The translations under genes and the position numbers were made by a program. From Sulfobacillus thermosulfidooxidans DSM 9293 (GTDB taxonomy: Bacteria > Bacillota > Sulfobacillia > Sulfobacillales > Sulfobacillaceae), in assembly GCF_900176145.1 (NCBI RefSeq), contig NZ_FWWY01000001.1, positions 2,539,444-2,603,443 of the forward strand: a stretch of DNA of 64,000 nt. The letters are read 5' to 3'. Numbering within the stretch: the first letter of the stretch is position 1; the number at the start of each line of letters is the position of its first letter. The notes beneath the pieces were generated by a model that saw nothing but the letters and a program-made list of their open reading frames with translations, had not been told where the DNA came from and did not search any database. Of this stretch, positions 1 through 33,212 are shown piece after piece.

Positions 1-510
1 GAGCAAAACCTCCGGGAGAGGATTGAAACTCCATTTTCTGCACTATTTCGGCATTTCTTCCAGGTCTCCCGGAGCAAAACCTCCGGGAGAGGATTGAAAC
101 CGTTTTCGCAAAGATCGGACTTAATTCCCTAGTAGTCTCCCGGAGCAAAACCTCCGGGAGAGGATTGAAACTTTGTAAATATTGACGGCATTGAGGCCCT
201 GTCCGGTCTCCCGGAGCAAAACCTCCGGGAGAGGATTGAAACCCAGACATCCATGCGACAATTCGCATTCGTTTTGATGTCTCCCGGAGCAAAACCTCCG
301 GGAGAGGATTGAAACCTTGAAGTGAGCCAGCGGGGATCCCAATTCCTCGTCTCCCGGAGCAAAACCTCCGGGAGAGGATTGAAACAGAGCATGGAATTGC
401 AACTCGATATGTATGCCGGAGGTCTCCCGGAGCAAAACCTCCGGGAGAGGATTGAAACCATTCCATAAGGGACTTAAGGGGGTACTACTCAACGTCTCCC
501 GGAGCAAAAC
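1..510 (+). CRISPR. CRISPR array, 7 spacers, truncated at both ends
   Basis: A 37-nt repeat that begins GTCTCCCGGAGC and ends GGATTGAAAC recurs at 64-100, 135-171, 206-242, 279-315, 349-385 and 422-458, all identical. A partial copy lies at 1-29 (cut by the window edge) and a 17-nt partial copy at 494-510 (cut by an insertion sequence). The seven spacers are 33-36 nt long and all different. The repeat contains a perfect 9-bp stem, CTCCCGGAG/CTCCGGGAG, around a CAAAAC loop. It ends in ATTGAAAC, the usual 5' handle of type I and III crRNAs, so the array probably reads on the plus strand with its leader beyond position 1. No cas genes are visible in the window. The IS sits at the leader-distal, oldest end. 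Confidence 0.98.
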
Positions 511-576
511 TGGATGTTAGTCTAAATTGTGGACACCTCGAATTGAGACAAGATGATACAATAATTCTCCATTGAG

Positions 577-873
577 GTGAATCCGATGGCCAATCAATAT
601 GATCGAGCGTTTAAAGAACAAGCGGTTCAACTCGTGTTGACCCAACAAAAAAGTGGCGCGCAAGTGGCGCGCGAACTGGGCATTCCCAGCAAAACCTTGT
701 ATGCCTGGGTCGCTGCCTACAAAGCCGATCCGGTGGAACCCTTTGTGGGTAGTGGGCATCTGAAAGCGGAAGACCAAGCCCTGCGCGATTTGCCGCGGCG
801 TATTCGGGATCTCGAAGAGGAGAATGCGATCCTAAAAAAAGCGATGCGCCTCGTCACCAACGATCGGAAGTAA
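577..873 (+). CDS. IS3-family transposase OrfA (HTH protein)
   Basis: This 98-residue protein has a helix-turn-helix of the Transposase_8 type near residues 8-45 (ELGIPSKTLYAWVAAYK) and a C-terminal leucine-rich coiled coil (RIRDLEEENAILKKAM) used for multimerisation. It binds the IS ends, and in the OrfAB fusion it supplies the DNA-binding half of the transposase. It starts at ATG 577, about 10 nt after the weak ribosome site TTGAGGTGA. The A7 run near its end is the probable frameshift site into orfB. Confidence 0.93.
   Translation: MNPMANQYDRAFKEQAVQLVLTQQKSGAQVARELGIPSKTLYAWVAAYKADPVEPFVGSGHLKAEDQALRDLPRRIRDLEEENAILKKAMRLVTNDRK
834..840 (+). other. Probable programmed -1 frameshift site (A7)
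   Basis: Seven A residues followed by G lie near the end of orfA. OrfA is read in frame 1 and orfB in frame 0. A -1 slip here gives a continuous reading through KKSDAPRHQRSEVIFQF into the orfB frame up to the MCQILDVSRSGYYAW region. This arrangement is standard for IS3-family OrfAB synthesis. The site is seen directly; its use is inferred. Confidence 0.75.
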
Positions 874-920
874 TCTTTCAGTTCATTCATGAACACCGCT
901 TCACCTTCTCGATCACGAAG

Positions 921-1730
921 ATGTGCCAAATCCTCGACGTTTCGCGAAGTGGGTATTATGCGTGGCGCCATCGCCCCCCCAGTACTCAGGCGCAAGTCCG
1001 GGCCCGGCGGGTCGAACGGATTCGGGCGGTGTTTACCGCATCAGGGGAACGCTACGGCAGCCCCAAAATCACCGCCGTGTTACGGCGGGAAGGCGAGCGC
1101 ATTAGTCAAAAAACGGTGGCACGGTTGATGCACGACCATCGATTGCGCTCTCGCGTGACACGGAAATATAAAGCCACCACGAATTCTCGGCATACGTTGC
1201 CGGTGCATGAGAACGTGTTGAATCAAACGTTTACCGCGGATCGCCCGCATGCGGTGTGGATGGCGGATATTACCTACATCCCCACGGAGGAAGGATGGCT
1301 CTATTTAGCGAGTCTTCAGGATTGGTACACCCGAAAAATTGTGGGATGGGCGGTAGACCGGCGCATGACGCAAGATTTGGTCATCCGAGCCTTAGACCGT
1401 GCGGTTACCCACAGCCAGCCGCCGGCCGGCGTGCTGCATCACTCGGATCGAGGCAGCCAATATGCCGCCGCGGCTTACCAGGAAAGGCTTCAGCAGTATG
1501 GCATGACGGCGAGCAAGAGTCGCAAAGGAAATTGTTACGATAACGCCATGATTGAATCCTGGCACAGTCTCCTCAAGAAGGAGCTGATTTACTTGACGAA
1601 ATTCCGAACCCGGGCAGAAGCGGAAGTTGCGATCTTTGCCTATATCGAGATTTTTTATAATCGGCAGCGCGTCCATAGCGCCCTAGATTATCAGACTCCA
1701 GCCGAGGCTGAGGCGGCGTATCAAGCGTGA
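921..1730 (+). CDS. IS3-family transposase OrfB (DDE integrase domain)
   Basis: This 269-residue catalytic half is made mainly as an OrfAB fusion by -1 frameshifting. It carries an HTH_21-like region (YGSPKITAVLRREGERISQKTVARLM) followed by an rve integrase core. The acidic triad is visible: D in VWMADITYIP, D in HHSDRGSQY, and E in DNAMIESWHSLLKKE, with the usual spacing. No disruption is seen, so the element may be active. ATG 921 is simply the first ATG in this frame; coding sequence joins orfA upstream of it. Confidence 0.94.
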   Translation: MCQILDVSRSGYYAWRHRPPSTQAQVRARRVERIRAVFTASGERYGSPKITAVLRREGERISQKTVARLMHDHRLRSRVTRKYKATTNSRHTLPVHENVLNQTFTADRPHAVWMADITYIPTEEGWLYLASLQDWYTRKIVGWAVDRRMTQDLVIRALDRAVTHSQPPAGVLHHSDRGSQYAAAAYQERLQQYGMTASKSRKGNCYDNAMIESWHSLLKKELIYLTKFRTRAEAEVAIFAYIEIFYNRQRVHSALDYQTPAEAEAAYQA

Positions 1731-1779
1731 TCTGGATAATGTCTCCATTTTGGGTGTCCATTTTATTGACATAGGTCCA

Positions 1780-1890
1780 AAACGCCGCAGCAAAGTTATC
1801 ATCTCGAAGTTCTTCAAGAGACGGTGTGGCCTGATGTTCCCTATGCCCATAAGGGTCAGCGCACCGATGTTCTATTGAAGAATATCCCAA
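1780..1890 (-). pseudogene. Unidentified gene remnant cut by the IS3 right end
   Basis: On the minus strand, the 110 bp between the IS and the helicase gene read without a stop as a protein-like fragment containing SLEELRDDNFAAAFWTY, which then runs into the IS. The plus strand is also open here for 37 codons, ending KGQRTDVLLKNIPRT. The family is not recognised and the coding strand is uncertain. It may be what remains of a gene removed when the CRISPR/IS junction was rearranged. Confidence 0.3.
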
Positions 1891-1919
1891 GAACCTAAAG
1901 TATGAACGCCAGTCCGTCG

Positions 1920-4900
1920 TTATATCGCGGTTTCAGCATTGGCAAAGATGGAAGAGGGAACCGGTGAGGATTTAGAGCCAGGAATAATTTCGGCTTGTTC
2001 AACGAACACGCAGAGCGCATTGATTAAGGGTAAATGTTCAATATGCGCGGGCTTATGGAATAACAATGAAGGATTCGCAATCAAAATGGCAACGCCTTGG
2101 GCCCGGGAGATGGCGACGTTCAGACGATTTAAGCTATAAAGGAATTCTAAACCATGAGGAATATCCTCAGGATTTGAAGCCGCAGTACTATAGATGACAA
2201 CAGGCGCTTCTTGCCCTTGAAACTTATCGACCGTGCCTACCCGCACGTCCTTGGGCAAAGCCGCTCGAAGCCTCGTAACCTGCGCGTTATAAGGGGCTAC
2301 AACCAGGATGTCATTGGCCGTTAAGGGGCGCATGTGTCCTTGTTGATCGGTCCAGGTGCTGGTTAAGAGTTCCATCACCACTTGACGGGTTAAGAGGACT
2401 TCTTCTTCGGAGGCGGTTCGGTTCCCTTCATGCCAAATGGGAACATAATAGAGGCCTGAATGAGACCAGGGACCCGGCCCCTGGAGATTTTGCTTCGCAC
2501 ACTGCGGATGGGATGTGAATTTGTCGTCATAGGCAATATGGGAAATATAGCGCGTGATCACGGGATGCATGCGGCGCGTGACGTCTAAGAATATCCCGTA
2601 GTGGGGGTCGATGGTTGGAGCCCCTTGCAGGATGTATTCTAAAACCGAAACATCCACGCCTGGGGGATGATGACCTTGACTGGGTTGGCGGAGTTGCTGG
2701 GGATCTCCCAACAAAATGAGGGATTTGGCGGCCTGTGCAGCGGCCAGCGCGTTGGCTAAGGACATTTGCCCTGCTTCATCAATCACGAGCACATCTAAAG
2801 CTTCACACCATTCGGGCCGAGCAAAAAGCCAAGCGGTACCCGCCACCACCTGGGCGCCGTTAAGAAATGCGGCAAAGACTTTATCATTATTATTCAATAC
2901 CTGAAGCGAAGAGGATGAAATGCCGCCATTATCCCGTCCTCGTTGCACGGCTTTGAGGTTGATGCCCCGTTCTTTGACCCGTAAGAGGACCGCGTCGAGC
3001 AAATGACGAATGACCTGATGGCTGGGGGCGGTGATGCCGACGGTTTTACCGGCCTCGACCAAATCAACGATAATGTGAGAGGCTGTGTAACTTTTTCCTG
3101 AGCCAGGTGGCCCTTGAATGGCTAAATATTGATGATCGAGGGCTAACGCGCACCGTCTGGCCGCGGCACTGGCCTCTTCACCGGGAAGGCGCAGGACGCC
3201 ATCTGGGGAACAGCCCGGGATTTCAGGGCGTCTACGCATTAAAAGCGCTCTTAAAGCCGAAAACCGGCCCTTTGTGCCCATTCCTTGTTCTAAAACCGTG
3301 GAGGCCAAAGATTTTAGTGCGTTTTTCAAAACTCCGGTTTGGATGGGGCCTGGGGGGATCAGAGCCTGGGGTCTTTTGCCGCCAGTTTTGATGGCAATAA
3401 GACCTTGGGCCGGATCAACATCAATCACTTCGCCAACCGTTTTTCCAGTCACGGGATCCACGGGCTTATCACCCACGTTGATCTTGTGTTCTTGCAGGGG
3501 ATAGCGGTATAGATCACTGCCATCTTGCCGGATACCAACAAATTCTAAACCACTGAGACTTTCGGGATCTTCCAGCAATTCTTCTAAGGACATGTCCCGG
3601 TGTGCAAAATATTTCCACCATACCGATTTATCCTCGCGGCGATGCCAATTGAGGAGATGGGCAAGGATAAAGCGCGCATATTCTGGCGCCTCGGGACCCG
3701 GTTCCTGATCAAAAGGTTTGATAAGTTCAGCGACTAAGGCGTGGGTGTCATCTTGTGGCCTTTCAAAAGCGGGAGGAGTTGCGTCGGAATTGGCATTTTG
3801 TGGGATGCTCTCATGGTTCTGGGCGATGAATTCGTGTTTTCGCGCAACAAGCCACGTGTGAAGACGCCACGTCGACAGGCAGTCATCTTGGTTGTAAGCC
3901 TCGATGTCTTCGAGAATCGTGGCGTCGCGCGATTGTTTCCACTGGTCATAGGCGATGATACTTGCGCCAGCATTGGTGATTTCTCCTTCACGCTTTTCCA
4001 TATATAAGGGCTCCAAATATTTGATGGAGTAAGATTCTTGAGAGACCATCAGGCTATGACGGACAATGTGATATAAATCAACGAGAATATGTTGGGCCAG
4101 CAGATGATCCACTTCCGCTTCCCTGGTGCTGTAACGTCCCATTAACCGTTTTAAGGCGGTGGGTTCATAGGGCGCATAATGATAAATGTGCATATGGGGA
4201 TAGTGGGCGAGACGGTCCATCATCCGGTCAATAAAGGTTTCGAAACTGTGGCGCTCGCTGGGGCGGTCATGGGCCCAAAGAGCGTGAAATGAGGGTTCCT
4301 TATCCAAGTCATCGACTTCGGCCCATCCAAAAAGATATTCCAGGGGTCCCCCTTCGGCTAAAGGATCTCCTTCCAGATCAAAGTACACATCGCCAGGTTG
4401 GGGATCGGGCAAGCGGTGAAATCCATGCTCAGGGTGAACGGGTAATATCTCGAAAATGACCTGACCCGAGATCCGCTGTTCCCACTGAAGGCGGGCTTGC
4501 TTGATTAATCGTTTTAAGGTGTCATCACTCATGCCCTTGATATGCCCTGACGGATCGGTGTGGGCTAACGCGCTGAGGGTATGGATACCGTGGTGCTGCA
4601 ATTTTTTAATCTGAGATTTGGTAATGTTGGCGACATACCAGAGGTGATCATCCTCGCGCCTTTTGGCTTCGCAGATATCAAGCCACGTGCATGATTCACA
4701 AGCCGGTTTGGGATCGGGATATGAAGGGGTGGGATCCTTTATCCAATGTTTCAGGCGGGAAGCGGCTAATTTGACATAAGACCGGGCAAATGTCGGCGGA
4801 AAATCGATTTTCTCATGCTGTCCCAAAACGAGGGTGATGGGGGCCGCTTGCCCTTGAACCCCTTCGAGTAAAAGGCTATAAAACGTTGCCTGCACCAGTG

Positions 4901-5330
4901 CCGAGACGCGTGCTTGATGAGCTAATTTCACTTCTTCGACGCGGTAATAAAAAGGACCGAGCTCTGAGGATCCCTCGTACCGCACGAGAAAATCGGGGGT
5001 CCCGATCCAGATATCTTGCTGCAATGTGCCTTGATAAATGACGGGTTCCCCTCGACCTAAGGCGAGGCGGGTTAAATGAACCCGTTCTGTGAGAGAGACT
5101 CCCTGGCTTCCGTCCCATAAGGGCAACCCTTGGGACAAGAGTTCATTTAGGTACTGCTGTTCTTTTTCATTCCCCATACGGCTTAACATCTGCTGCTGAG
5201 GATCCTGAGAATCAAGGGGTGCCATCTTTCCTTGCACGAGTTGCAGGTTAAGCCAACTTCTTTGGGGACATTCGATGTGATTGACCACATCGGATGCCGT
5301 TAATAAGAATCGGCCATCAATGAGTTGCAT
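1920..5330 (-). CDS. TM0106-family Cas4-like nuclease / exonuclease / SF1 helicase fusion
   Basis: The 1136-residue protein appears to have three enzymatic modules. Residues 1-225 form a RecB/Cas4-like PD-(D/E)XK nuclease: D113 in GTPDFL, E133 and K135 in EEVKL, and four cysteines (C21, C211, C214, C220) spaced as in the 4Fe-4S Cas4/AddB group. Residues 312-500 form an RNase H-like DEDD exonuclease (YFDLEGD at 316-322; YNQDDCLSTWRL near 485). Residues 720-1110 form an Upf1/Dna2-like SF1 helicase (Walker A GPPGSGKS 740-747; DEAGQ 851-855; RLNVAISRAQ late). The whole suggests end processing of DNA. The gene stands alone, 140 bp from the IS that ends the CRISPR array. It starts at ATG 5330 behind GGAGGCCCCG. 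A link to CRISPR adaptation is only inferred from Cas4 similarity and position; general repair is equally possible. Confidence 0.88.
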   Translation of the reverse strand: MQLIDGRFLLTASDVVNHIECPQRSWLNLQLVQGKMAPLDSQDPQQQMLSRMGNEKEQQYLNELLSQGLPLWDGSQGVSLTERVHLTRLALGRGEPVIYQGTLQQDIWIGTPDFLVRYEGSSELGPFYYRVEEVKLAHQARVSALVQATFYSLLLEGVQGQAAPITLVLGQHEKIDFPPTFARSYVKLAASRLKHWIKDPTPSYPDPKPACESCTWLDICEAKRREDDHLWYVANITKSQIKKLQHHGIHTLSALAHTDPSGHIKGMSDDTLKRLIKQARLQWEQRISGQVIFEILPVHPEHGFHRLPDPQPGDVYFDLEGDPLAEGGPLEYLFGWAEVDDLDKEPSFHALWAHDRPSERHSFETFIDRMMDRLAHYPHMHIYHYAPYEPTALKRLMGRYSTREAEVDHLLAQHILVDLYHIVRHSLMVSQESYSIKYLEPLYMEKREGEITNAGASIIAYDQWKQSRDATILEDIEAYNQDDCLSTWRLHTWLVARKHEFIAQNHESIPQNANSDATPPAFERPQDDTHALVAELIKPFDQEPGPEAPEYARFILAHLLNWHRREDKSVWWKYFAHRDMSLEELLEDPESLSGLEFVGIRQDGSDLYRYPLQEHKINVGDKPVDPVTGKTVGEVIDVDPAQGLIAIKTGGKRPQALIPPGPIQTGVLKNALKSLASTVLEQGMGTKGRFSALRALLMRRRPEIPGCSPDGVLRLPGEEASAAARRCALALDHQYLAIQGPPGSGKSYTASHIIVDLVEAGKTVGITAPSHQVIRHLLDAVLLRVKERGINLKAVQRGRDNGGISSSSLQVLNNNDKVFAAFLNGAQVVAGTAWLFARPEWCEALDVLVIDEAGQMSLANALAAAQAAKSLILLGDPQQLRQPSQGHHPPGVDVSVLEYILQGAPTIDPHYGIFLDVTRRMHPVITRYISHIAYDDKFTSHPQCAKQNLQGPGPWSHSGLYYVPIWHEGNRTASEEEVLLTRQVVMELLTSTWTDQQGHMRPLTANDILVVAPYNAQVTRLRAALPKDVRVGTVDKFQGQEAPVVIYSTAASNPEDIPHGLEFLYSLNRLNVAISRAQGVAILIANPSLLFHKPAHIEHLPLINALCVFVEQAEIIPGSKSSPVPSSIFANAETAI

Positions 5331-5612
5331 CGGGGCCTCCTTTTTCCATAATCACTAGAATAGAGTATGTTATTCAAGTCTTCCGCATCATTCTTGCCAT
5401 ATACCGGAAATTGTAACATGAATTATGTTGGGTCTCTACAATGATGCTACTTACTTCTGCGTGTCGAGAACGTCTGGAATGAATTCTGTGATGTGCTATA
5501 GACAGTTTGTGAAAATTTGTCTGTAAGGCAGGGAGGAACAGACCCTTCGTTTCAACTCGGATTTGGAGGTTAAACATATGATGCTAAAAGGAAGCGGAAA
5601 GCCTTAGTCTTT

Positions 5613-6239
5613 TTAGATCAGACCATAACGGTAGGCAATCACGGCGGCTTCAACACGGTTCCTGGCACCGAGATTTTCTACTATCGTGTTGATATGCACC
5701 TTAACCGTGTTTTCGGACAGATTTAGGATGGTACCAATTTCTTTGTTTGTCAAGCCTTCGGCAACAAGTGATAAAATACGGATATCTAAGGGTTTGAGCG
5801 GGGCCGGGAATTTGAGATGTTCCTCTTCAACCCACCTTATGACGTGTGCCGTCAATTTTGGGTCTAAGACCGCTCCTCTCGTTAAAACACGCCGGATACT
5901 GTCGATGAGTTCCGAACTGGTGACGTCTTTGATGATATAACCCCGCGCACCATTGACCAAAGCAGACCGTAATAACGTTTCATCCGTATAACTGGTCAGG
6001 ATTATGCAGGCAGTGGGCAGGCCAGCGTCTTTCACCAAACGGCAGACTGCTGGCCCTTGGAGTCCGTCCATGCGAACATCTAGCAAGGCGATTTCGGGAT
6101 GCAATTTTTGGATGAGATCCCATGCCATATTGCCATCGCCTGCCTCGCCAACCACATGAAATTCGTGGGTGTCTGATAAGACTTGTCGTAGACCTCGTCG
6201 GGTCAGTTCATGATCATCGGCAATGATTACTCGATACAT
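5613..6239 (-). CDS. NarL/LuxR-family response regulator
   Basis: This 208-residue regulator has a receiver domain at residues 1-120: acidic pocket D8/D9 in IIADDHE, phospho-acceptor D54 in ALLDVRMDG, conserved Thr in ILTSYTD and Lys in YIIKDV. A LuxR-type HTH follows at about 148-205 (ILSLVAEGLTNKEIGTILNLSENTVKVH in two helices). It overlaps the 3' end of the sensor kinase by 13 bp, so the two are translated together. It presumably activates nearby promoters on phosphorylation. The divergent CO dehydrogenase operon is the obvious candidate, but no binding site was identified. Confidence 0.93.
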   Translation of the reverse strand: MYRVIIADDHELTRRGLRQVLSDTHEFHVVGEAGDGNMAWDLIQKLHPEIALLDVRMDGLQGPAVCRLVKDAGLPTACIILTSYTDETLLRSALVNGARGYIIKDVTSSELIDSIRRVLTRGAVLDPKLTAHVIRWVEEEHLKFPAPLKPLDIRILSLVAEGLTNKEIGTILNLSENTVKVHINTIVENLGARNRVEAAVIAYRYGLI

Positions 6240-7405
6240 GGTGATGACCTCGGTTTGGTATTATTGGGGAGAACAACACGGACTGTCGTGCCGCCGTCGT
6301 CATGATTGAATATCGCAAATTGGCCCCCAATTCGGCGGGCTAAGGTATCCATCGATCGGATGCCATAGCTAAGAGGGGCATTCCACGATGGCGGCAGTCC
6401 CACTCCCATATCATGAATCGCAAGGATGGTTTCACGATCCTTTATTGATAACGTTATGACCGCTACCTCACTATGGCTATGTTTCCGAATATTGGTTAAG
6501 GCTTCATGTGCAATGGCGCGAGCAACGGAGACGGTGGCCGAGCCGATTTTTTTGTCGTTGCCCGTGCATAAGAACTTAGTTTTGATTCCACTGTCTTTTT
6601 CGAATTCTACCAACATCTGTGAAATTAAGGCGGCTAATCCCCGCGAGGGCGCATTATCGGTCAGAGAAAAAATTGCCGTTTTCACGTCTTGTAGGCCTCT
6701 TTCAGCAAGTTCTTGCATGGCGGTTAATCGAGCAAGGAGTTCTTCATCATTTTGAGGAAGATGCTGTTGGCATCGGCTTATTTCCATTTTTAACAGAAAC
6801 AATGTTTGAGCTACCGAGGAATGCAGGGCCATGCTAATTCTCTCGCGTTCTTCTAAAACTAAAATCCTTGCCAACTGATCACGACTGCGCACACTTTCAA
6901 GGGCAATCGCAGCTTGAGTAGCGAAAGCTGATAGCAAATCTTGATCTCGTTGCGTAAAATGGCGTCCGTGCGGGCTTTCAGCCAAAAACAAGCTGCCCAG
7001 TAATGTCTCAAGAGATTTAAGGGGAACTCCTAGAAATGACCCCAAACGGGGGTGGTTAGCCGGTTTGTTTACTGCATGCGATAAGGGAACTTGGTCAAGT
7101 CGTACCGCTTGTCCAGTACGGTAAGGAACCATAAACAGTCCATGGCCTGTAGGCAGTTCCTTGGCAGGAGGGACACCCGAGACTTTGAAATGCCGTAGTT
7201 GGCGAGGATTGTTCTCATCTACGACGACGAGCCCACCCATCTTAGCTCCAATGAGATCACGAGCGCAATCAACGATGGTTTGTAAGAGACTGTCAAGGTC
7301 GGCCTGCATGGCAATTTTTTGGTTCAGCATGATTAACGTTTCGAGTTCACGAACCTGTCTGGTTAAGTCGGACGGAATCGCGGTTTTTCCTTTTTTAAGA
7401 GCCAT
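6227..7405 (-). CDS. GAF-domain sensor histidine kinase (HisKA_3 type)
   Basis: The 392-residue kinase has no obvious membrane segment. A GAF domain spans roughly residues 35-172. A dimerisation/phospho-acceptor segment follows, with the family pattern ERERISMALHSSVAQ (H195). The C-terminal HATPase domain has an N box in AIAHEALTNIRKHSHSE and a G box in IHDMGVGLPP. Such soluble NarL-type kinases sense small molecules or redox state through GAF; the ligand here is unknown. It is transcribed away from coxM across a shared 252-bp intergenic region, which suggests but does not prove a role in controlling the cox cluster. Confidence 0.92.
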   Translation of the reverse strand: MALKKGKTAIPSDLTRQVRELETLIMLNQKIAMQADLDSLLQTIVDCARDLIGAKMGGLVVVDENNPRQLRHFKVSGVPPAKELPTGHGLFMVPYRTGQAVRLDQVPLSHAVNKPANHPRLGSFLGVPLKSLETLLGSLFLAESPHGRHFTQRDQDLLSAFATQAAIALESVRSRDQLARILVLEERERISMALHSSVAQTLFLLKMEISRCQQHLPQNDEELLARLTAMQELAERGLQDVKTAIFSLTDNAPSRGLAALISQMLVEFEKDSGIKTKFLCTGNDKKIGSATVSVARAIAHEALTNIRKHSHSEVAVITLSIKDRETILAIHDMGVGLPPSWNAPLSYGIRSMDTLARRIGGQFAIFNHDDGGTTVRVVLPNNTKPRSSPCIE

Positions 7406-7657
7406 GAGTATAACCTTTCTTTCGTCAACAACACCACCTGTTGGCTACTTACAACTCCTACGATGTCATGAAGGTAGTTATATATTACCACGTGACATTT
7501 AATTTTTTACGGGCATGTGTGAAAAATACCAAAACAGATGCGGGAATATACCTTTTTGGGTATCGCTTAGCAATGTCTCAATCTCCACAATGACAATAGA
7601 ATCTGCATCACGCGAGACAAGGTGATAAGCATTCTTGGACAACTAAGGAGGATAAGA

Positions 7658-8545
7658 ATGTTTCCCAATCCATTTCAATATTATGCGCCGCAATCATCAG
7701 ATGAAATATTCGAATTATTAGCTCAATATGGGGATGAAGCTAAAATTTTAGCAGGTGGCCAAAGCCTGTTGCCGATGATGAAACTGCGTTTGGCAGCCCC
7801 TTCTGTGTTGATTGATGTCAATGGCATCTCCTCATGGACTGATGTCACGGAACAGGATCACCTGCTGCATATTGGCGCCCTCGTTCGTCATTGCAAATGG
7901 GAGTCTGTGCTAGATTCGCGCGTACCTTTGCTTCACCAGACGGCGAGGCACATTGCGGATCCGCTTGTGAGAAATCGGGGCACGATGGCGGGTTCACTAG
8001 CCCACGCTGATCCAGCAGCTGATTGGGGAGCGGCCCTATTGGCTCTTAAAGCATCGGTATCCATCCAAAGTGCACAACGCTCCCGGAAAGTGCCAATTCG
8101 CGAGTTCTTTGTTGACACATTTACAACGGTGCTTGAACCACAAGAAGTGGTTACGGGAATACGTATTCCCCTGCATCACGATTCTGGATTTGTGGGCGCT
8201 CGCTATTTGAAGCTGGAGCGAAAAGTGGGGGACTTTGCAGTGGTAGGGGTTGCACTTACGCTGGTCTTAGATCCCCATGGTGTCGTGTTGGATGCTGGTA
8301 TTGGATTGGCGGCTGTGGGAACGACACCCTTGGCAGCGGTGAAAGCGGAATCGTTATTGCAGGGTCATCCTTTAACAACGGACCTCATTCGTCAGGTCGC
8401 ATCTGAGGCGGCAAAGGAATCCGATCCGGTGACGGATCGCCGCGGCAGTGAAGAGTACAAACGGGCAATGGTTAATGTTTTCGTAGAACGTGGTCTTATG
8501 TCCATTTATCAGGACTGGCAACGGCTGATGGATGTGTCGGCATAA
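7658..8545 (+). CDS. coxM: Aerobic CO dehydrogenase medium (FAD) subunit
   Basis: This 295-residue flavoprotein subunit passes electrons from the Fe-S subunit to the quinone or respiratory acceptor. FAD-binding motifs are visible near the N-terminus ([13 protein letters not shown]) and in the middle ([18 protein letters not shown]), followed by the CO_deh_flav_C domain. ATG 7658 is preferred over the upstream GTG 7622 because AAGGAGG lies 7 nt before it and the family's N-terminus is MFP-F-Y-P. It is the first gene of the cluster. The order M-S-L is that of form I enzymes; form II clusters are usually S-L-M. Confidence 0.93.
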
Positions 8546-8583
8546 GTATCTTTGAAATCCATGAAGGGAATGGAGGAAACACG

Positions 8584-9090
8584 ATGGGACAAACAGTTAT
8601 CAATGATCAAATTATGGTTCACGTCACGATTAATGGCGAATCGCGCCATGCCTTGGTGGAACCTCGAACGTTACTCGCTTATTTTATTCGGGATACTCTT
8701 GGATTAACGGGGACTCATGTCGGTTGTGATACGACTAGTTGTGGAGTTTGTACCGTGCTCTTAGATGGCATGCCAGTAAAATCGTGTACGGTTTTGGCAG
8801 TGCAAGCTGATGGTCATGATATCGAAACGGTAGAAGGCCTTGAACAGAACGGACAACTCCATCCTTTGCAACAAGCGTTTTGGGACAATCATGGCTTGCA
8901 ATGTGGATTTTGTACCCCTGGCATGTTAATGACAACCACAGCCCTCCTACGAAATTCCGAAAACATCACCGAGCATGAGGTACGACGGGCGATTTCCGGA
9001 AATCTCTGTCGGTGTACAGGATATGTCAATATTGTCAAAGCGGTTCTCGAGGCTAAACGCCGGATGGGAGAGGAGGCTAGTACGTCATGA
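8584..9090 (+). CDS. coxS: Aerobic CO dehydrogenase small (2Fe-2S) subunit
   Basis: This 168-residue subunit carries two [2Fe-2S] clusters. The N-terminal plant-ferredoxin-type site is in [16 protein letters not shown] with a further Cys in VKSCTV. The C-terminal helical site is in QCGFCTPGM and CRCTGY. It links the Mo active site in CoxL to FAD in CoxM. Its stop overlaps the start of coxL by 4 bp (ATGA), so translation is coupled. ATG 8584 follows GGAGGAAACACG. Confidence 0.95.
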
Positions 9091-11441
9091 GCATGGACGT
9101 CACGGAAACCCAGCCTTTAGGTAAAGCCATTAAACGCAAGGAAGATCCGCGGTTTATACGGGGACAAGGGCGATACTTGGATGATATTGTCTTGCCACAC
9201 ATGCTTTATATGGCACTGGTTCGTAGTCCTTATGCCCATGCCCGAATTAAATCCATTCGCACCGAAGCTGCTTATACCGTTAAAGGGGTTAAGGCTGTTC
9301 TCACTGGGGAAGATTTGGCTGCGATGAACCTCGCATGGATGCCGACATTAGCTGGAGATCAGCAAATGGTATTAGCCACTGGCAAGGTTCTATTTCAATA
9401 TCAGGAAGTCGCAGCCGTTGTGGCTGAAACTCGGGAAGCTGCTGAAGACGGTGTGTCGCGTGTTGAAGTCGAGTATGAACCTCTCACCCCGGTTATCGAT
9501 CCCTATTTTGCTTTAACGGCCGAAGCGCCCATATTGCGGGAAGACCGCGCACAGAAAAGCAACCACATTTTCCATTGGGAAGTGGGTGACAAAGAAGGAA
9601 CAGATGCGGCGTTGGCGGCCTCACCCGTGGTGGTAAAAGAACAGATCCGGATGCCCAGGGTCCATCCAGCTCCTTTGGAACCTTGTGGTTGTATCGCTGA
9701 TTATCAGAAATCCACGGGAAAACTCACCTGGTATGTTACCTCACAAGCCCCTCATGCACACCGAACGGTCTTGGCCATGGTTTCTGGACTTCCGGAGCAT
9801 ATGATTCATGTTGTGTCACCTGACATTGGCGGGGGATTTGGTAACAAAGTACCTGTATATCCCGGTTATGTTTGTGCTGTGGTTATGTCGATAAAACTAG
9901 GACAACCCATTAAATGGATAGAAACTCGCACGGAAAATCTAGCCACCACCAATTTTGCTCGAGATTATCATATGACAGCCGAGATTGGAGCCACAGAAGA
10001 CGGGCATGTGACGGCTTTAAAGGTCACCACTCTTGCCGATCACGGTGCATTTGATGCGGCAGCTGACCCTTCTAAGTTTCCGGCAGGATTATTTTCTATT
10101 GTAACGGGGTCCTACCGTTTTCCTGTGGCTTTCGCCGAAGTTGATGGAGTTTATACGAATAAAGCGCCAGGGGGTGTTGCTTATCGTTGTTCATTTCGGG
10201 TCACCGAAGCGTCGTTCTTGATTGAACGTGTGATGAATACTTTGGCATATCGGCTCAATCTCGATCCGGTCGAGTTGCGGAGACGAAATTTCATTGCCTC
10301 TGAAGAATTTCCTTATCAATCTCCATTGGGTTGGACTTATGACAGTGGTAACTATGCTAAAACCCTAGATACCGCTCTCGCTATGGTGGATTATCCAAAA
10401 TTACGTAGGGAACAGCAGAAACGGCGTGAAAAGGGCGAATTGGTCGGCATTGGGATCTCGACGTTCACTGAAATTGTTGGGGCAGGACCCAGTCATACTT
10501 TTGATATTCTTGGCATCAAAATGTTCGACAGCTGTGAAATTCGGATCCATCCCACTGGTAAGGTGATTGCCCGACTCGGCGCGCGTCATCAAGGGCAAGG
10601 ACATGAAACCACGTTTGCCCAGCTCATTGCGCAGGAACTGGGATTGTCAGCAGCCGATGTTTTAATTGAAGAAGGGGACACCGATACCGCACCTTATGGA
10701 TTAGGAACCTATGCTAGTCGTAGTACGCCAACTGCTGGAGGAGCCGCGGCACTGGCAGCCAGGCGGGTACGAAAGAAGGCCCAACAGATTGCCGCGCATT
10801 TGCTCGAAGTATCCCAAGAAGATGTGCAATGGGATGGAACCCGATTTTTCGCGAAAGGGTTGAGCTCTCGTAGTGTGACCATGGCGGATGTCGCTTTGGC
10901 GGCCTATACCAATTTGCCAGAAGGCATGGAACCAGGATTGGAAGCCACCTACTATTACGATCCGCCCAATTTGACATTTCCCAATGGCGCTTATATTGCT
11001 GTCGTCTCCATTGACCGGGGAACGGGACAAGTGCACGTGGAACGGTTTGTTGCAGTCGATGATTGTGGAACAGTCATCAATCCCATGGTCGTCGAAGGAC
11101 AAATTCACGGAGGGCTTACAGAAGGCTTTGGGATTGCCTTTATGCAAGAGATTGCATTTGATTCCGATGGTAACAATCTTGCACCGAATTTTATGGATTA
11201 TTTGGTGCCAACCGCTGTGGAGACTCCACACTGGGAAACGGGGCGTACTGTCACACCATCTCCTCACCATCCTATTGGAGCCAAAGGGGTTGGTGAATCG
11301 CCCAATGTTGGATCCCCTGCGGCATTTGTTAACGCCGTAATCGACGCCTTGGCACCCTATGGTGTTACCAATCTTGAAATCCCTTTATTCCCATGGAAAA
11401 TCTGGGATGTGCTGAAACAGCATGGGCTAACCCGGTCTTAG
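9087..11441 (+). CDS. coxL: Aerobic CO dehydrogenase large (Mo) subunit, form I
   Basis: The 784-residue catalytic subunit oxidises CO to CO2 at a Cu-S-Mo centre bound to molybdopterin cytosine dinucleotide. The signature AYRCSFR lies at residues 365-371 (bases 10179-10199), with C368 as the copper-ligating cysteine. This motif separates form I (true CODH) from form II enzymes and other xanthine-oxidase relatives. Pterin-binding glycine motifs such as DIGGGFGNK and the late conserved GAKGVGESP (Glu at the active site) are present. Length is close to the roughly 800 residues of known CoxL. It overlaps coxS by 4 bp. Together with coxM, coxS and the maturation genes downstream, it suggests energy gain from atmospheric or geothermal CO. 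Confidence 0.96.
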
Positions 11442-11460
11442 GCAAAAAGGGGGGAGAAGC

Positions 11461-12426
11461 ATGGATCCAGTCTTGCAAGAAGCTGCACGACGCGATCAGG
11501 CGGGAGAGCCCTACGTCTTCGTGACGGTGGTACGAACCCGCCCGCCGACATCAGCCATTCTCGGAGCGCATGCCATTGTTAGCCGCGATCAGCAGTTAAC
11601 AGGCTATGTGGGCGGTGAATGTACGCGACGCATTCTACTGGAAGTTGCCGAAGACGCATTGACCGATGGGAAGCCACGGCTGTTGTTATTATCACCTCAG
11701 CCAGCAGACGATGAATTGTTTCAACAGAAAGATCCCGAGGACGAGGGAGTATTGATCAAACCGATGACGTGTCACTCGGGAGGGACGGTCGAACTATTTA
11801 TCGAGCCGCATCTCGCCAACCCGCTGCTGTTAGTCATCGGTGATTCGCCAGTGGCTCGCCATGTACTGCAATTAGCCTCTCACCTAAATTTTCGGGTGCA
11901 AGGTGCAACTCCGTCTTCTGGTGGCGATTGGGAAACATTTCAACAACAGATTCGTCTATTAAGCCAAGATGGCGGCTTCGCCGTCTTGGCTTCCATGGGG
12001 CAATATGACGATTGGGCAATCGAGGCGTTACAAGATTCTCCGCTTTCCTATCTCGGAGTTGTAGCGTCGCCCCGGCGCGGGGCACTGCTGCGAGAGCGTT
12101 TCTTACAAGGGCGCAAGGTTGATGACTCCTGCATTCTCTCAATTCCGGCGGGAATAGATGTGCATTCGCGAGTTCCTGAAGAAATCGCGGTAAGTATTTT
12201 GGCTGAAATCATTCAAATCCGTCGGCAGACTCAGTCGACTGCTGTAAGGATCTCATCCCTTCTAAATACAGAGGTAATCGATCCGGTTTGTCATATGACG
12301 GTGAATCTTTCTGAGACTCCATACCAAGCAGTCTTTGGGGACAAAACATGGGGATTTTGTGCGCCATCTTGTCGGGAAGCATTTTTACAAGATCCAGAAC
12401 GCTATGTTCACCATAAGGAGGCATGA
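11461..12426 (+). CDS. XdhC/CoxI-family maturation factor with C-terminal YHS domain
   Basis: Residues 1-70 resemble the XdhC_CoxI N-terminal domain (VTVVRTRPPTSAILGAHAIV, then GYVGGECTRRILLEVA), and about 120-250 resembles the Rossmann-like XdhC_C domain ending in GIDVHSRVPEEIAVSILAEI. These proteins insert or sulfurate the molybdenum cofactor of CODH/xanthine dehydrogenase. Unusually, residues about 274-320 are a YHS domain (DPVCHMTVN, then WGFCAPSCREAF), a small metal-binding module found in copper and heavy-metal proteins. Form I CODH needs copper as well as sulfur, so a metal-delivery role is an attractive inference. ATG 11461 follows GGGGGGAGAAGC. Confidence 0.85.
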   Translation: MDPVLQEAARRDQAGEPYVFVTVVRTRPPTSAILGAHAIVSRDQQLTGYVGGECTRRILLEVAEDALTDGKPRLLLLSPQPADDELFQQKDPEDEGVLIKPMTCHSGGTVELFIEPHLANPLLLVIGDSPVARHVLQLASHLNFRVQGATPSSGGDWETFQQQIRLLSQDGGFAVLASMGQYDDWAIEALQDSPLSYLGVVASPRRGALLRERFLQGRKVDDSCILSIPAGIDVHSRVPEEIAVSILAEIIQIRRQTQSTAVRISSLLNTEVIDPVCHMTVNLSETPYQAVFGDKTWGFCAPSCREAFLQDPERYVHHKEA

Positions 12427-12430
12427 ACCG

Positions 12431-12883
12431 ATGAAAACGTATCAAGGCATTGTCGTGATGGACGCTCCCTTGAATGTGGTTTGGGATTTTGTTCAAGACC
12501 CCGATGCAATAGGACGCTGTATGCCGGATGTCGTCGAATATCAGGTATTAGATGATCGCCATTTGCATGCCAAAGTGCGGGTGGGGGTAGGACCTGTTCG
12601 CGCAGTTTTTGATATGAACGCCGCCATTGAGTTATTGCCTGAACCGTACCACGCTCGCTTAGATGCTCAAGGAGGAGGCATGGGCAGTGGTTTTCATCTT
12701 CTGAGCACAATGCATATTACACAAGAGTCAGGGCAGGTATCCCTCAATTGGATTGCGGATGTCAGTGTCAGTGGACCCCTTGCGACCTTAGGGGGGCGGT
12801 TGTTGGATAATCAAGTGAAAAAAATTACAGAACAGGTCTTTGAAAATATTCGGCAAGGGGTTGCGGCTCAGTTAGCCGAATAG
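12431..12883 (+). CDS. coxG: CoxG family protein (SRPBCC fold)
   Basis: This 150-residue protein has the CoxG/SRPBCC pattern: an N-terminal beta strand and helix (VVMDAPLNVVWDFVQDPDAIGRCMPDV), a central sheet (VRVGVGPVRAVFDMNAAIEL) and a long C-terminal helix. CoxG is reported to anchor CODH to the membrane and to bind quinone or lipid in related systems. ATG 12431 is chosen because AAGGAGG lies just before it (12417-12423), and upstream in-frame ATGs fall inside the preceding gene. It overlaps nothing and sits 4 bp after the xdhC-YHS stop. Confidence 0.9.
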   Translation: MKTYQGIVVMDAPLNVVWDFVQDPDAIGRCMPDVVEYQVLDDRHLHAKVRVGVGPVRAVFDMNAAIELLPEPYHARLDAQGGGMGSGFHLLSTMHITQESGQVSLNWIADVSVSGPLATLGGRLLDNQVKKITEQVFENIRQGVAAQLAE

Positions 12884-12903
12884 CCGAGTAAAGGAGAATA
12901 TGG

Positions 12904-13755
12904 GTGAATGGGTGCGAACTGTGGATTCAGCAATTAAACCAAGCGGGATATGTTGCGGACGAGATGCTGTCCGCCGTGTGTTATGCCGTAGACCGTTTAC
13001 GCCGTCCTTTGCTCGTGGAAGGTCCAGCGGGTGTCGGGAAAACCTTTTTGGCGAAGGCACTGGCCCAGTGCCTTAACAAGCCGTTGGTCCGTCTGCAATG
13101 TTATGAAGGACTTGATGCCTCCCAAGCATTGTACGATTGGAATTATGCCAAGCAACTGTTAGCAGCACATAGTGCTGGAACAACAACCGTTGTCGATGAT
13201 TTCTACCGCTGGGAATATTTATTGGAGCGTCCATTACTCAAAGCCATTCGTCTTCAACCCGCGCCTGTCCTACTGATTGACGAAGTGGAACGAGCCGACG
13301 AAGAGTTTGAAGCGCTACTACTGGAACTCTTGGGTGAATTTCAAATAACCATCCCTGAACTTGGAACGATTACTGCACAGGAGCCTCCATGGGTTGTGTT
13401 AACGTCTAATCGTACGCGAGACTTGTCCGACGCTTTGAGACGGCGTTGCCTTTATTTATGGTTAGATTATCCGACGCCAGAACGCGAATTGGCCATTATC
13501 CATCAACATGTTCCACATTTGTCCTTAGATATTGCCAAACGTGTCGTCGCGGCGGTAAGAACTTTACGAGGATGGAATTTGCTAAAACCTCCTGGCCTTG
13601 CGGAATCAATCGACTGGGCCCGGATGTTGGCGGAATTTGATGGCGAGGGATATTCGGAGAGTACGGTGCGGTGGACTCTGTCGAGTGTGCTGAAGACCCA
13701 AGATGATTGGATTGTGGTCGAAACACGGGGGATTCGAGCATTATGGACGGAGTGA
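12904..13755 (+). CDS. coxD: MoxR-type AAA+ ATPase CoxD
   Basis: This 283-residue AAA+ ATPase has Walker A GPAGVGKTFLAKA (about residues 40-52), Walker B VLLIDEVERADEE, sensor 1 VVLTSNRTRDLSDALRRR, and an arginine-rich finger region. CoxD works with the VWA protein CoxE to assemble the Cu-S-Mo active site of CoxL, after the Mo cofactor has been inserted. It starts at GTG 12904 behind AAAGGAGAATATG; the nearby ATG is in another frame. It overlaps the start of coxE by 13 bp. Confidence 0.93.
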   Translation: MNGCELWIQQLNQAGYVADEMLSAVCYAVDRLRRPLLVEGPAGVGKTFLAKALAQCLNKPLVRLQCYEGLDASQALYDWNYAKQLLAAHSAGTTTVVDDFYRWEYLLERPLLKAIRLQPAPVLLIDEVERADEEFEALLLELLGEFQITIPELGTITAQEPPWVVLTSNRTRDLSDALRRRCLYLWLDYPTPERELAIIHQHVPHLSLDIAKRVVAAVRTLRGWNLLKPPGLAESIDWARMLAEFDGEGYSESTVRWTLSSVLKTQDDWIVVETRGIRALWTE

Positions 13756-14852
13756 GGGTTGACCAGTTTTCCCGTCGCCTAGAAATGCAAGTGATAGAGT
13801 TTTCACACTTTCTAAGGCAGCATGGATTTCATCCGGCGGTGAGTGAGACAAAGGCCGCCCTGCAATTATTTTCTGCGTCGCCGATAGAGCACGCTCAAGA
13901 TTTGCTGAGAATGTGGCGACCCGTGTTTGCGAAGACAGCAGAGCAATGGGAAATATTTCCTAACCTGTTTCAGCGTTTCTTTTATCCGGAAAGGCCTCGG
14001 TTGACGGTACCAGAACGTATTCAAGAAAGCGCTGATGACGTGTTGTCAACGCCTGGTCAAACACGCGTGCGAGGCGAATCAAAAAATCCCTCTCCTGCTC
14101 TGTTTGCCTATAGTCCGCGTTGGGGAAGCCCTTGTATTTTGTCTCCAGGACAGGATGTGCCCTATCATGAAATGAAACATTGGACGCACCATATTGCGCG
14201 TTATTGGGCAACGAAAACTGGGCCGTGGCGTGGCAAAAGTTCCCGGGGACGTAAATTGAATTGGCGCGCTACGTTCCAAACTGCTTTCCGCCACGGCGGA
14301 GACCCTGTAAAGTGGCTTTGGCACCCTCGTAGACAAGAACACGCGCGGATTGTCGTATTGCTAGACGTTTCCGGATCGATGCAGGCTTATGTGCCTTTCT
14401 ATTTAGGCCTGATATGGCAACTGATGCGTGAGGGCAGTCGGGTGGAATGTTTTTTATCAAGTAATCAGATTAAGCGGGTGACGCCCTTTTTACGTCGAAG
14501 TGGACCAGGTGGGCCACCCGTGGCTGATGCGCATCAGCTGGGAGGAGGGACACGATTAGGATGGGCTTTCTCATCGTTATTGCACGACTATTCTCGGTTG
14601 TTTACTCGGCGAACGACCTTTCTTATTGCGTCAGATGGATTTGACACAGGAGATTTGTGGTTGCTGGCTCAATCTTTTCCCGTTCTAGTTCGTCTTACTC
14701 AGCGTGTGGTGTGGTTTAACCCGTTATTATTATTGCCAGAATATACTCCCCAATCGGCTGCTTTAAAAATTGTATTGCCTTACGTCGCGGAACATGTTGG
14801 AGTGGCCGACAGTTCCTCATGGATTCATTACGTGCGTACGTGCCTGCAATGA
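13743..14852 (+). CDS. coxE: VWA-domain protein CoxE
   Basis: The protein is 369 residues from ATG 13743, which overlaps the coxD end. The C-terminal half is a von Willebrand A domain with the MIDAS motif DVSGSMQAY, a second part GGGTRLGWAFSSLL and a third around IASDGFDTGD. It partners the MoxR ATPase CoxD in maturing the CO dehydrogenase active site. The N-terminal half is helical, as in other CoxE proteins. An upstream start (13707) lies within coxD and lacks a ribosome site. Confidence 0.9.
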   Translation: MDGVRVDQFSRRLEMQVIEFSHFLRQHGFHPAVSETKAALQLFSASPIEHAQDLLRMWRPVFAKTAEQWEIFPNLFQRFFYPERPRLTVPERIQESADDVLSTPGQTRVRGESKNPSPALFAYSPRWGSPCILSPGQDVPYHEMKHWTHHIARYWATKTGPWRGKSSRGRKLNWRATFQTAFRHGGDPVKWLWHPRRQEHARIVVLLDVSGSMQAYVPFYLGLIWQLMREGSRVECFLSSNQIKRVTPFLRRSGPGGPPVADAHQLGGGTRLGWAFSSLLHDYSRLFTRRTTFLIASDGFDTGDLWLLAQSFPVLVRLTQRVVWFNPLLLLPEYTPQSAALKIVLPYVAEHVGVADSSSWIHYVRTCLQ

Positions 14853-14870
14853 CTAAGGGAGGGATAGACA

Positions 14871-15893
14871 GTGTCGTCAATTCAAGAGGCGCGGAATTTG
14901 TGGACACTAATAACCGATGCAGAGGTATCGGAACAAAGGGCGGTCTTGGCTACCTTAGTAAGGGTGAATGGATCGGCATATCGCCGGCCCGGGGCCAAAA
15001 TGGTGAAGCGAGAGGATGGCAGAATGCAAGGTACCTTGAGTGGAGGATGTCTTGAAGGCGATTTATTTCTCCATGCCCAACGTGTTATGAAGACCCATGA
15101 ACCATGTCTGCAGCATTATGATCTGACTGAAGATGACATGTGGGGCTTGGGTATTGGATGCAAAGGGCGTGTAGATATATGGCTAGAGCCGATCCGTTTA
15201 TCTGATCCGTTTTGGACTGCATTTAATGAATGTGTACACCGCGAAGAACCCGTGATTTGGGGAGCAGAACTTCCTTCAGGACGCCGTTTTCTTTTTTCTA
15301 CCGCTACACAGTGTGGAGAAGTTCCTCCGTGGGCCTCGGCGATCTTCGCATCATCCGAGAACAAGAGGGACACCGGGTTTTTCGACGGATTTTGGTGGGA
15401 TCTCATGAAGCCCCCTACACGGTTGGTTATTGCCGGTGCTGGCCATGACGCCGAGCCTGTTGCCCAGTTGGCCCGACAGGTCGGCTTTGCCGTGACAATT
15501 GTAGATCCTCGGCCTCATGTCAATAATGATCGCCATTTTCCCCAGGTCATACATTGTCTCACTCTGATGACCCAAATAAATCCGGATACCTTAACGGGGG
15601 CTTACTGGGTTATTATGAATCATCATCAACGCCGTGATGAAGAAGCGCTGACACTTGCAGCGGCTTCCCATCCTCAATTTGTTGGGGTGTTAGGACCGTT
15701 GGCCAGGACATTGGAGATGCTGACAAACGTGGGACTCACTCCTCATGATCTGCCGTTACACGCACCCGTCGGACTAGATGTTGGCGGTGAAACTCCTGAA
15801 GAAGTGGCAGTCAGTATTGTGGGAGAGCTAATGGCTAGCCGGAAGGGCACTAAAGGAGGCACCCTACATGGACGTGAACATGTCCATTCATGA
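14871..15893 (+). CDS. XdhC/CoxF-family molybdenum cofactor maturation protein
   Basis: This is the second XdhC-like protein of the cluster, 340 residues. The N-terminal XdhC_CoxI domain reads VLATLVRVNGSAYRRPGAKM, then GTLSGGCLEGDLF. A middle segment contains CKGRVDIWLEP. The C-terminal Rossmann domain reads LVIAGAGHDAEPVAQLARQVGF and ends GLDVGGETPEEVAVSIVGEL. It is expected to protect and sulfurate the cofactor before insertion into CoxL. It starts at GTG 14871 with AAGGGAGGG 7 nt upstream. It overlaps the next gene by 26 bp. Confidence 0.9.
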   Translation: MSSIQEARNLWTLITDAEVSEQRAVLATLVRVNGSAYRRPGAKMVKREDGRMQGTLSGGCLEGDLFLHAQRVMKTHEPCLQHYDLTEDDMWGLGIGCKGRVDIWLEPIRLSDPFWTAFNECVHREEPVIWGAELPSGRRFLFSTATQCGEVPPWASAIFASSENKRDTGFFDGFWWDLMKPPTRLVIAGAGHDAEPVAQLARQVGFAVTIVDPRPHVNNDRHFPQVIHCLTLMTQINPDTLTGAYWVIMNHHQRRDEEALTLAAASHPQFVGVLGPLARTLEMLTNVGLTPHDLPLHAPVGLDVGGETPEEVAVSIVGELMASRKGTKGGTLHGREHVHS

Positions 15894-16497
15894 GAGCGTA
15901 GCGATGATCCTCGCGGCAGGGTTTAGTACGCGAATGGGACAACCCAAAGCGTTATTGCCGTGGGGGGAGGGGACCGTGCTAGATCATGTGATGGGCCAAG
16001 CCCGGCAAGCCGGCGCTCAGACCCTGGTGGTGTTAGGGTTTGAGCCCTCTTTTCCCATCACCGGAGACTGGGTGAGGAATGTTCATGCATCTCAGGGGAT
16101 TGCCAGTTCCATTCAATGCGGATTAACCTGGATTCGAAGGCATAAAGGCTTGGCCCCTGTGCTCGTCCTTTTAGCGGATCAACCCTTTGTGACCTCAGAT
16201 GATATTCTGTGGACATGGAAGCAATTTGTGGCGCGTTCAGCAGATGTTCACGCCGTGAGGCCGCTTTATGAAGGTCTGATAGGTCACCCTGTCATTTTTG
16301 ATGCGGCCTTTGATGCTGCTATTTTTCAGTTAGAAGGAGATAGGGGGCTCGGTAAAATCTGGAATACACGCCCTGATACCTTAAGCCTAAAGGCGCCGCC
16401 TTTGCTGTCACGACCTCATCCGAGTTTTGATTTGGATACACCAACCGACTATGCTCGGGCCTTGTCCCTAAGAAAGTGGAATCAAGAGCCCAACTAA
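15868..16497 (+). CDS. MocA/MobA-like molybdenum cofactor nucleotidyltransferase
   Basis: This 209-residue protein has the NTP-transferase signature MILAAGFSTRMGQPKALLPWGEG at residues 13-35 (LAAG-x-S-x-RMG-x-x-K), the metal-binding LLADQPFVT, and a late GHPVIF motif. Members attach CMP (MocA) or GMP (MobA) to molybdopterin. CODH-type enzymes use the cytosine dinucleotide, so the cytidylyltransferase activity is the likelier one; the sequence alone does not settle it. It is the last gene of the cox cluster and is coupled by overlap to the preceding xdhC gene. AAAGGAGG precedes ATG 15868. Confidence 0.87.
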   Translation: MDVNMSIHESVAMILAAGFSTRMGQPKALLPWGEGTVLDHVMGQARQAGAQTLVVLGFEPSFPITGDWVRNVHASQGIASSIQCGLTWIRRHKGLAPVLVLLADQPFVTSDDILWTWKQFVARSADVHAVRPLYEGLIGHPVIFDAAFDAAIFQLEGDRGLGKIWNTRPDTLSLKAPPLLSRPHPSFDLDTPTDYARALSLRKWNQEPN

Positions 16498-16706
16498 CCC
16501 CATTTTCCCAAAGACAATAAGAGACAGTAAGAAGATTAGTGATGTCGCGCGGGGAATTTGATGGCTTCACGATTTTTCTTTAGTCCCTCATGTTGTTTCC
16601 TAGGGCTTGATTTTCCCTCAAAATTCTTTAAGGTCCCTGCACAAGAAAACAAATGATTATATAGTGAGAGTTGACGAGGGAATATGCGCAGGAAGGGAAA
16701 AGGGAA

Positions 16707-17564: not shown

Positions 17565-18083
17565 AATGGGGTCTGTGCTGGGTTTAGAAGTTGCCTTGTC
17601 GTAAGGAAATTTCTTGGAGCCAGGGGACACATCTTTATCATCTGTGATAAAGTTCATATTTTTAGTTATACTGTAGAAAAAGTCAATCGAAAGATCTATA
17701 TTGTTAATAATTCAATTACTAAATTTACAATTGAGGTGCCAAGATGATTGCGTCTCTAAGAACCGTCGGGTTTCGTTGGCTGTGGTTAGGGCAGTTGTTA
17801 TCCCAATTTGGCAATGCAGTATTTTTGATCATGGGGTTTTGGGTCATCCAGCTTAAAAGCCCATTTTTATTAGGGATTGCGGGGCTGGCCATGGCCATTC
17901 CCCAAATATTAGCGGTAATTGGCGGAGCGGTGGTAGACCGTTTTGATGCTAAGCAGATCATGTTATTAACCGATTTATTGCGTGGAACGGCGGTTGCCGT
18001 GGGCCTCGTAATTATCGCCCTCGATCCGCAAGCCAGTCCTTATATCATTATCACCGTCATTGGGGTGAATGCCTTAGGCACCG

Positions 18084-18091
18084 CATTTTTT
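18084..18091 (+). repeat. Left copy of the 8-bp IS target duplication
   Basis: CATTTTTT occurs here and again at 19507-19514, directly bracketing the IS256-family element. Removing one copy with the IS restores the MFS reading frame, which confirms that it is the target duplication. Confidence 0.9.
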
Positions 18092-33201: not shown

Positions 33202-33212
33202 GTGAATTATGA

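Follow-up and report, generated by a model that had tools for sequence, protein, structure and literature searches.

The gene studied here encodes a full-length member of the already named TM0106/COG2251 family, in which a Cas4-like nuclease, an RNase H-like exonuclease and an Upf1/Dna2-like helicase are joined in one chain. We suggest, with a probability of roughly 55%, that the accessory copies of this protein (those of patchy occurrence or carried on plasmids), including that of the window (the whole 64,000-nucleotide stretch of Sulfobacillus thermosulfidooxidans DSM 9293 DNA that was analysed), are one-chain helicase-nucleases destroying or processing invading DNA, either free-standing or with partners. 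The position of the gene beside a CRISPR array would then reflect defence-gene clustering together with chance rearrangement. A general enzyme against mobile DNA, or of repair, is better supported than a role in CRISPR, if unproven.

Features at and near the TM0106-family gene (window positions)
Feature	Positions	Strand	Basis or remark
End of type I-C CRISPR array (neighbour only)	1..510	+	Last repeat truncated at 510
IS3-type insertion sequence (IS) between array and gene	515..1771	+	Transposase domains, imperfect terminal inverted repeats
TM0106-family (TIGR03491/COG2251) nuclease-exonuclease-helicase gene	1920..5330	-	ORF, ATG start, 1136 aa
SF1 Upf1/IGHMBP2/Dna2-like helicase module, aa 546-1129	1944..3695	-	Pfam and IGHMBP2 structure match
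DEDD (RNase H-like) 3'-5' exonuclease module, aa 311-505	3816..4400	-	Pfam RNase_H_2, structure matches
Probable helix-hairpin-helix (HhH) linker, aa ~235-290	4461..4628	-	Weak basis
Cas4-like PD-(D/E)XK nuclease module, aa 1-227, Cys 21/211/214/220	4650..5330	-	TIGR03491 and Cas4 models, residues, Foldseek
LuxR-type response regulator, upstream neighbour	5613..6239	-	Same strand as gene
GAF histidine kinase, upstream neighbour	6227..7405	-	Same strand as gene

The protein matches NCBIfam model TIGR03491 with 285.2 bits against a cut-off of 97.45 (1e-84, aa 11-494). The match spans model positions 2-462 of 462 and thus places it in the family; the model itself covers the Cas4-like and RNase H-like unit and ends short of the helicase. 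Pfam recognizes RNase_H_2 (PF13482; 1e-29, aa 315-495) and the helicase halves AAA_11 and AAA_12 (best stretches aa 816-880 and 895-1086), and the protein has the COG2251 order of DUF83-like nuclease, PF13482 exonuclease and tandem AAA domains. It stays below the family cut-offs of Cas4 (PF01930, Cas_Cas4, 15.4 of 22.7 bits; TIGR00372, 21.8 of 65) and of the IGHMBP2 helicases (TIGR00376, 115.4 of 348.9), and PADLOC gives no full-length match to a system protein, only partial ones of MkoA over the helicase (E 3.8e-41) and of Cas4 over the nuclease. The putative HhH linker is helical in the predicted model, with a RAD51 model at E 0.044 (aa 235-279) and a Foldseek match to NusA AR2 at E 0.16. 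This domain make-up was already in print in 2014, in a paper that we take to be by Majorek et al. Its passage on COG2251 (PMC3985635) describes DUF83 with PF13482, often with tandem AAA domains, and presumes a 3'-5' exonuclease. Relatives named after TIGR03491 are annotated on plasmids, one of them as a 'bifunctional RecB family nuclease/DEAD/DEAH box helicase'. No biochemical study of the TM0106 family was found in the open-licence PubMed Central literature.

The preliminary description had recognized three modules from the sequence, namely a four-cysteine Cas4-type nuclease, an RNase H-like exonuclease and an Upf1/Dna2-like helicase. Profiles, residues and the predicted structure agree on all three, with an Fe-S cluster probably held by the cysteines. 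The AlphaFold2 model, built with 45 homologues as input, is confident (pLDDT 89.6, pTM 0.86). Its helicase half fits IGHMBP2 (4b3g_A) with Z 26.4 and rmsd 4.5 over 513 aligned residues, Upf1 with Z 24.3 and Dna2 with Z 21.3. The full-length match to Dna2 (5eaw_A, Z 21.3) extends over 660 residues at rmsd 25.5, with the DEDD module intervening. Residues 1-505 modelled alone reach pLDDT 94.8, and Foldseek relates them to Dna2 and to the type I-C Cas4 8d3l_J (E 2.8e-5, TM (target) 0.65). Cas4 is absent from the best 50 structure matches of the same residues because the exonuclease domain fills the list. The DEDD module resembles the exonuclease domains of family-B polymerases (Z up to 16.6, rmsd 3.2, 181 aligned). 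Two sequence searches for solved structures returned none covering the nuclease part; both match helicases over the helicase half.

Catalytic residues were compared in an alignment of 45 full-length homologues with 31-83% identity to the window protein. Its nuclease residues E57, D113, E133, K135, Q147 and Y151 are present and conserved, with E57 and K135 kept in 43/45 sequences each, and D113 and D/E133 in 44/45 each. Present and conserved are also the DEDD residues D318, E320, D418 and D483, and the SF1 motifs are near invariant. The four cysteines (21, 211, 214, 220) are all kept in 36 of the 45 and all gone in eight, C211 alone being lost in one. Copies without them come from Legionella, Thiothrix, cyanobacteria and gammaproteobacteria. 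This nearly all-or-none pattern argues, at the level of sequence, that the four cysteines behave as a unit. In the copy of genome G014, from the same taxonomic family as the window genome, the nuclease residues are replaced (E57A and K135V).

The defence reading rests in part on the plasmid relatives, which occur on 68 of 72,556 plasmid records and on none of 50,697 phage records. Fourteen plasmid neighbourhoods were compared with eight control stretches taken at an offset on these plasmids. A WYL regulator is present at a distance of up to 8 kb in 8/14 neighbourhoods and in 0/8 controls (p 0.009, the 14 loci being mutually related and thus non-independent). It is directly upstream and divergent in six (H15, H19, H24, H30, H32 and H34); in H12 one gene intervenes, and in H28 it is downstream. 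All but the H28 protein belong to one family (42-82% identical), and the pairing with this family holds at seven plasmid loci. Hits to a keyword list, found at 11/14 loci against 3/8 controls (p 0.07), are suggestive only; loci H2, H11 and H36 have none. The neighbours include E1 (ThiF), multiubiquitin and DUF6527 genes at H9 (there with E2 too) and at H32, SIR2 at H4 and H32, an AAA protein with a restriction endonuclease at H19, and an SbcD-like exonuclease, AAA protein, methyltransferase and restriction endonuclease at H24. No CRISPR array was found at any of the 14 loci.

On chromosomes, restriction-modification (R-M) genes (TmtA, HsdR/HsdS, type IIG or HsdM) stand near at least four of the eight loci of the cysteine-less clade. 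L027 is adjoined by TmtA and a UvrD-like helicase, L028 by HsdR and HsdS, L030 by a type IIG/ISP enzyme and L046 by HsdM. A protein more distantly related to ThiF of H9 is encoded 3.2 kb from the L027 copy. Near the cysteine-less copies 66 ORFs match 220 PADLOC models, whereas 66 control ORFs from these genomes match 6; these figures count models, not proteins, and the matches listed are the first 25 of the 220. No neighbour is common to all chromosomal homologues, the large shared clusters being mostly mycobacterial, and the WYL gene of the plasmid type is near none of the chromosomal homologues examined, that of the window included. Further results count against the defence reading. Only 2 of 52 genomes have an N6-methyltransferase at 10 kb or less from the gene, against an estimated ~0.3 expected (p 0.04). 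The presence of Zorya and BREX in the window suits a defence setting, but these nearest known defence genes besides the I-C locus are at least 24 kb from the gene.

The serious rival is an enzyme of chromosomal DNA repair or of replication forks, active in Dna2-like end resection or flap processing; the copies found near defence genes would then be hitch-hikers. We consider it quite possible, while leaning against it. Its standing follows from a conserved mycobacterial place and a widespread cyanobacterial form, both of which look like housekeeping. Mycobacterial copies occupy one conserved chromosomal place, and from gene order we take the M. tuberculosis copy to be Rv1251c. The portion of PMC4450064 that names Rv1251c classes it with DNA replication/repair and calls it 'ortholog of RecB family nuclease', and the literature passages found for this gene mention it in lists only. 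Among cyanobacteria 145 of 292 genomes exceed the TIGR03491 cut-off, most with a helicase-less form of ~490 aa and some with genomes of 1.6-1.7 Mb. The fold, nearest to Dna2, IGHMBP2 and Upf1, agrees with repair as well, and the H15 plasmid copy adjoins SOS and translesion polymerase genes. Against a repair role stand the patchy occurrence over the cut-off in the own genus (3/8 genomes) and phylum (2/398), the carriage on plasmids, and the WYL, ThiF, SIR2 and R-M neighbours. The pertinent part of a Synechococcus elongatus screen (PMC10653904) names a 'cas4' and Synpcc7942_0992 as genes that limit RSF1010 plasmids; from that part, the two could not be shown to be TM0106-family members.

The CRISPR array and the IS named in the preliminary description are both real. 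The genes cas3, cas5c, cas8c, cas7c, cas4, cas1 and cas2 lie to the left of the window (L010 11378-19273), followed by the array, whose 37-nt repeat has 12 exact copies genome-wide, all at this one locus. The IS (ORFs 577-873 and 921-1730) interrupts the terminal repeat of the array (494-510), and no target duplication is evident. The gene is oriented toward the IS from the side opposite the array, which is 1.4 kb off.

The history of the place is seen in blastn comparison with the congener G003, where the order is identical: first the hydantoinase block, then the gene (window 1777-5536), then the block of regulator and xanthine dehydrogenase (5586-18091). G003 has neither the ~11 kb I-C locus nor the IS here; its gap holds an array of 29 copies of a different repeat, ~3.4 kb from the gene, and three repeats of this second type remain in the window genome between the hydantoinase gene and cas3. 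The lost segment proposed between array and gene is therefore half right: relative to G003, one stretch with the second-type array and other genes was replaced by the I-C locus and the IS. CRISPR loci have thus been gained and lost here, whereas the gene has persisted. In the congener G005 the gene has another setting, with no array nearby. An operon of the gene with the upstream response regulator and kinase was also considered; the surrounding block is kept in G003, but the G005 match to the gene region leaves both out, so they are not a conserved pair. G014 shares with the window no synteny beyond a short-chain dehydrogenase and array repeats.

That the protein helps CRISPR adaptation by making or trimming prespacers for the adjacent I-C system is, in our view, very improbable. 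The proximity to an array with a complete cas operon, the kinship in fold of the first module with type I-C Cas4, and the arrays near the G003 and G014 copies (the latter ~7 kb away, adjoining cas1 and cas4) would suit such a role. However, the operon has its own cas4 (L010 17202-17798) adjoining cas1 and cas2, the gene lies beyond array and IS and not within the cas1-cas2 adaptation module, G003 keeps it at the same place without the I-C locus, and the G014 copy lacks E57 and K135. Beyond the window genome and one congener, an array was found in 1 of 89 family neighbourhoods, which include some short or helicase-less members and many flanks below 10 kb since contigs end; the array finder, though crude, recovered known arrays and flagged 3-copy repeats, judged non-arrays, in 2 of 26 control stretches. 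The single positive is the G014 locus, and outside the window's own taxonomic family arrays occur at 0/76 loci. Cas1 is missing from 18 of the 22 genomes with close full-length relatives, and in Actinomycetota it is rarer in carriers (6/49) than in non-carriers (11/31; Fisher p 0.02, ignoring relatedness). To our knowledge, the curators of TIGR03491 mention no CRISPR association either.

Hence, the prespacer supply or processing that had been proposed finds no support. A lack of enrichment near CRISPR loci, which the preliminary description had named as the refuting result, is what the counts outside the window's own taxonomic family show. The accompanying caution that the association could be accidental was justified. 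Local clustering remains in the own taxonomic family, with gene-to-cas1 distances, match to match, of ~5 kb in the window genome, 52 kb in G003 and 9 kb in G014, of which the first two represent one shared place and the third an independent one. This fits ordinary defence-gene clustering, and the position beside the array looks incidental.

That the gene is a decaying remnant of an IS-driven rearrangement, as the adjoining IS and rearranged junction might suggest, can practically be discarded in view of the intact ORF, the presence of every motif and a dN/dS of ~0.09 against G003 (dN 0.10, dS 1.16), which indicates purifying selection.

For the one-chain helicase-nuclease that we prefer, the following course may be proposed. 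Movement in the 5'-3' direction is established for helicases of the Upf1/Dna2 family. By analogy with them, the SF1B-type helicase would unwind DNA while moving 5'-3' on single strands. The Cas4-like Fe-S nuclease would cut the strand it encounters, while 3' ends would be degraded by the DEDD domain. With a helicase and two nucleases, the single chain could break down an open DNA end on both strands, which would make it roughly a one-chain analogue of Dna2 or AddAB. The substrate might be foreign DNA at the accessory loci and damaged or stalled DNA at the core loci.

Compared with known systems, the window protein shows essentially no difference from TIGR03491/COG2251 proteins, apart from the helicase-less ~490-aa forms that prevail in cyanobacteria. 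It is similar to Dna2, a full-length Foldseek partner, in that an SF1 Upf1-like helicase comes after a RecB-family nuclease. However, unlike Dna2, it has an extra DEDD module and a probable HhH between these parts, and the two proteins cannot be superposed in their relative domain positions (rmsd ~25 over the full match). The UvrD-Cas4 fusions (pfam12705; Hudaiberdiev et al. 2017, PMC5704561) likewise join a Cas4-like nuclease to an SF1 helicase and are linked to R-M; as presented in the section of that paper on these fusions, they differ by a UvrD-type helicase and another nuclease family, with no DEDD domain described there. With CRISPR-associated Cas4 the first module shares its fold and four-cysteine plan, whereas the protein scores below the Cas4 cut-offs, is encoded outside the adaptation operon and is fused to two other enzymes.

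Last, we tentatively extend this picture, though we hold it rather unlikely: the fused TM0106 protein may be an exchangeable, often WYL-controlled, DNA-destroying immune module of chromosomes and conjugative plasmids, with lineage-specific partners (E1/E2/DUF6527, SbcCD-like, R-M, SIR2), and in one clade the protein would work without the Fe-S cluster, having lost the four cysteines together while keeping the nuclease residues. The family is broad, including cyanobacteria, actinobacteria with the mycobacteria, Legionella and rhizobial plasmids. The CRISPR guess can be dropped for it. The cysteine-less clade and the G014 variant, predicted to be nuclease-dead, are natural experiments that could tell which active sites are needed. 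The pairing of plasmid copies with WYL regulators, like the R-M genes near other copies, offers concrete and testable grounds for assays of defence, and this pattern is the part worth following.

Left of the window, in the stretch of the same genome with the complete type I-C cas locus (L010), the three repeats of the second CRISPR type are a remnant of the 29-repeat array held at the same place by the congener G003. Two short Cas1-like fragments also occur in this genome, and they apparently represent a broken second adaptation locus. Inside the window, pglX of the BREX-like set is in two pieces, which match two halves of one model.

Features in the window, its genome and the neighbourhoods of TM0106 relatives
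Feature	Position	Strand	Content or basis
Second-type CRISPR	L010 10465-10628		three repeats
Cas1-like fragments	C1:2466638-2466863		two
Type I Zorya-like operon	window 29406-35936		ZorA, ZorB, ZorD, weak ZorC matches (PADLOC)
BREX-like set	window 38160-51011		BrxC/PglY, PglX, BrxHI, PglZ (basis includes PADLOC)
pglX pieces	window 41914-43536; 45212-46495
ORF between pglX pieces	window 43528-45138	minus	536 aa
Ubiquitin-like operons	L144 11386-13196; L129 4609-7034		two plasmids, directly adjoining TM0106 gene
TM0106 gene with PLD-SF2 helicase	L056 3442-9201; L065		G014, G022

Both plasmid operons contain multiubiquitin, E1/ThiF and DUF6527, with E2 in one of them. In two congeneric genomes a PLD-SF2 helicase gene converges on the TM0106 gene (Cas4-like nuclease, DEDD exonuclease and SF1 helicase), whose end is 7-26 bp away from it; the PLD-SF2 helicase of L056 resembles type IV restriction enzymes. 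The TM0106 protein of G014, from the same taxonomic family as our strain, is without the nuclease residues E57 and K135.

Five genomes, from Legionella and others (G434, G437, G439, G454 and G455), carry two TM0106 family members apiece above the curated TIGR03491 threshold, and this pairing suggests one core and one acquired copy.
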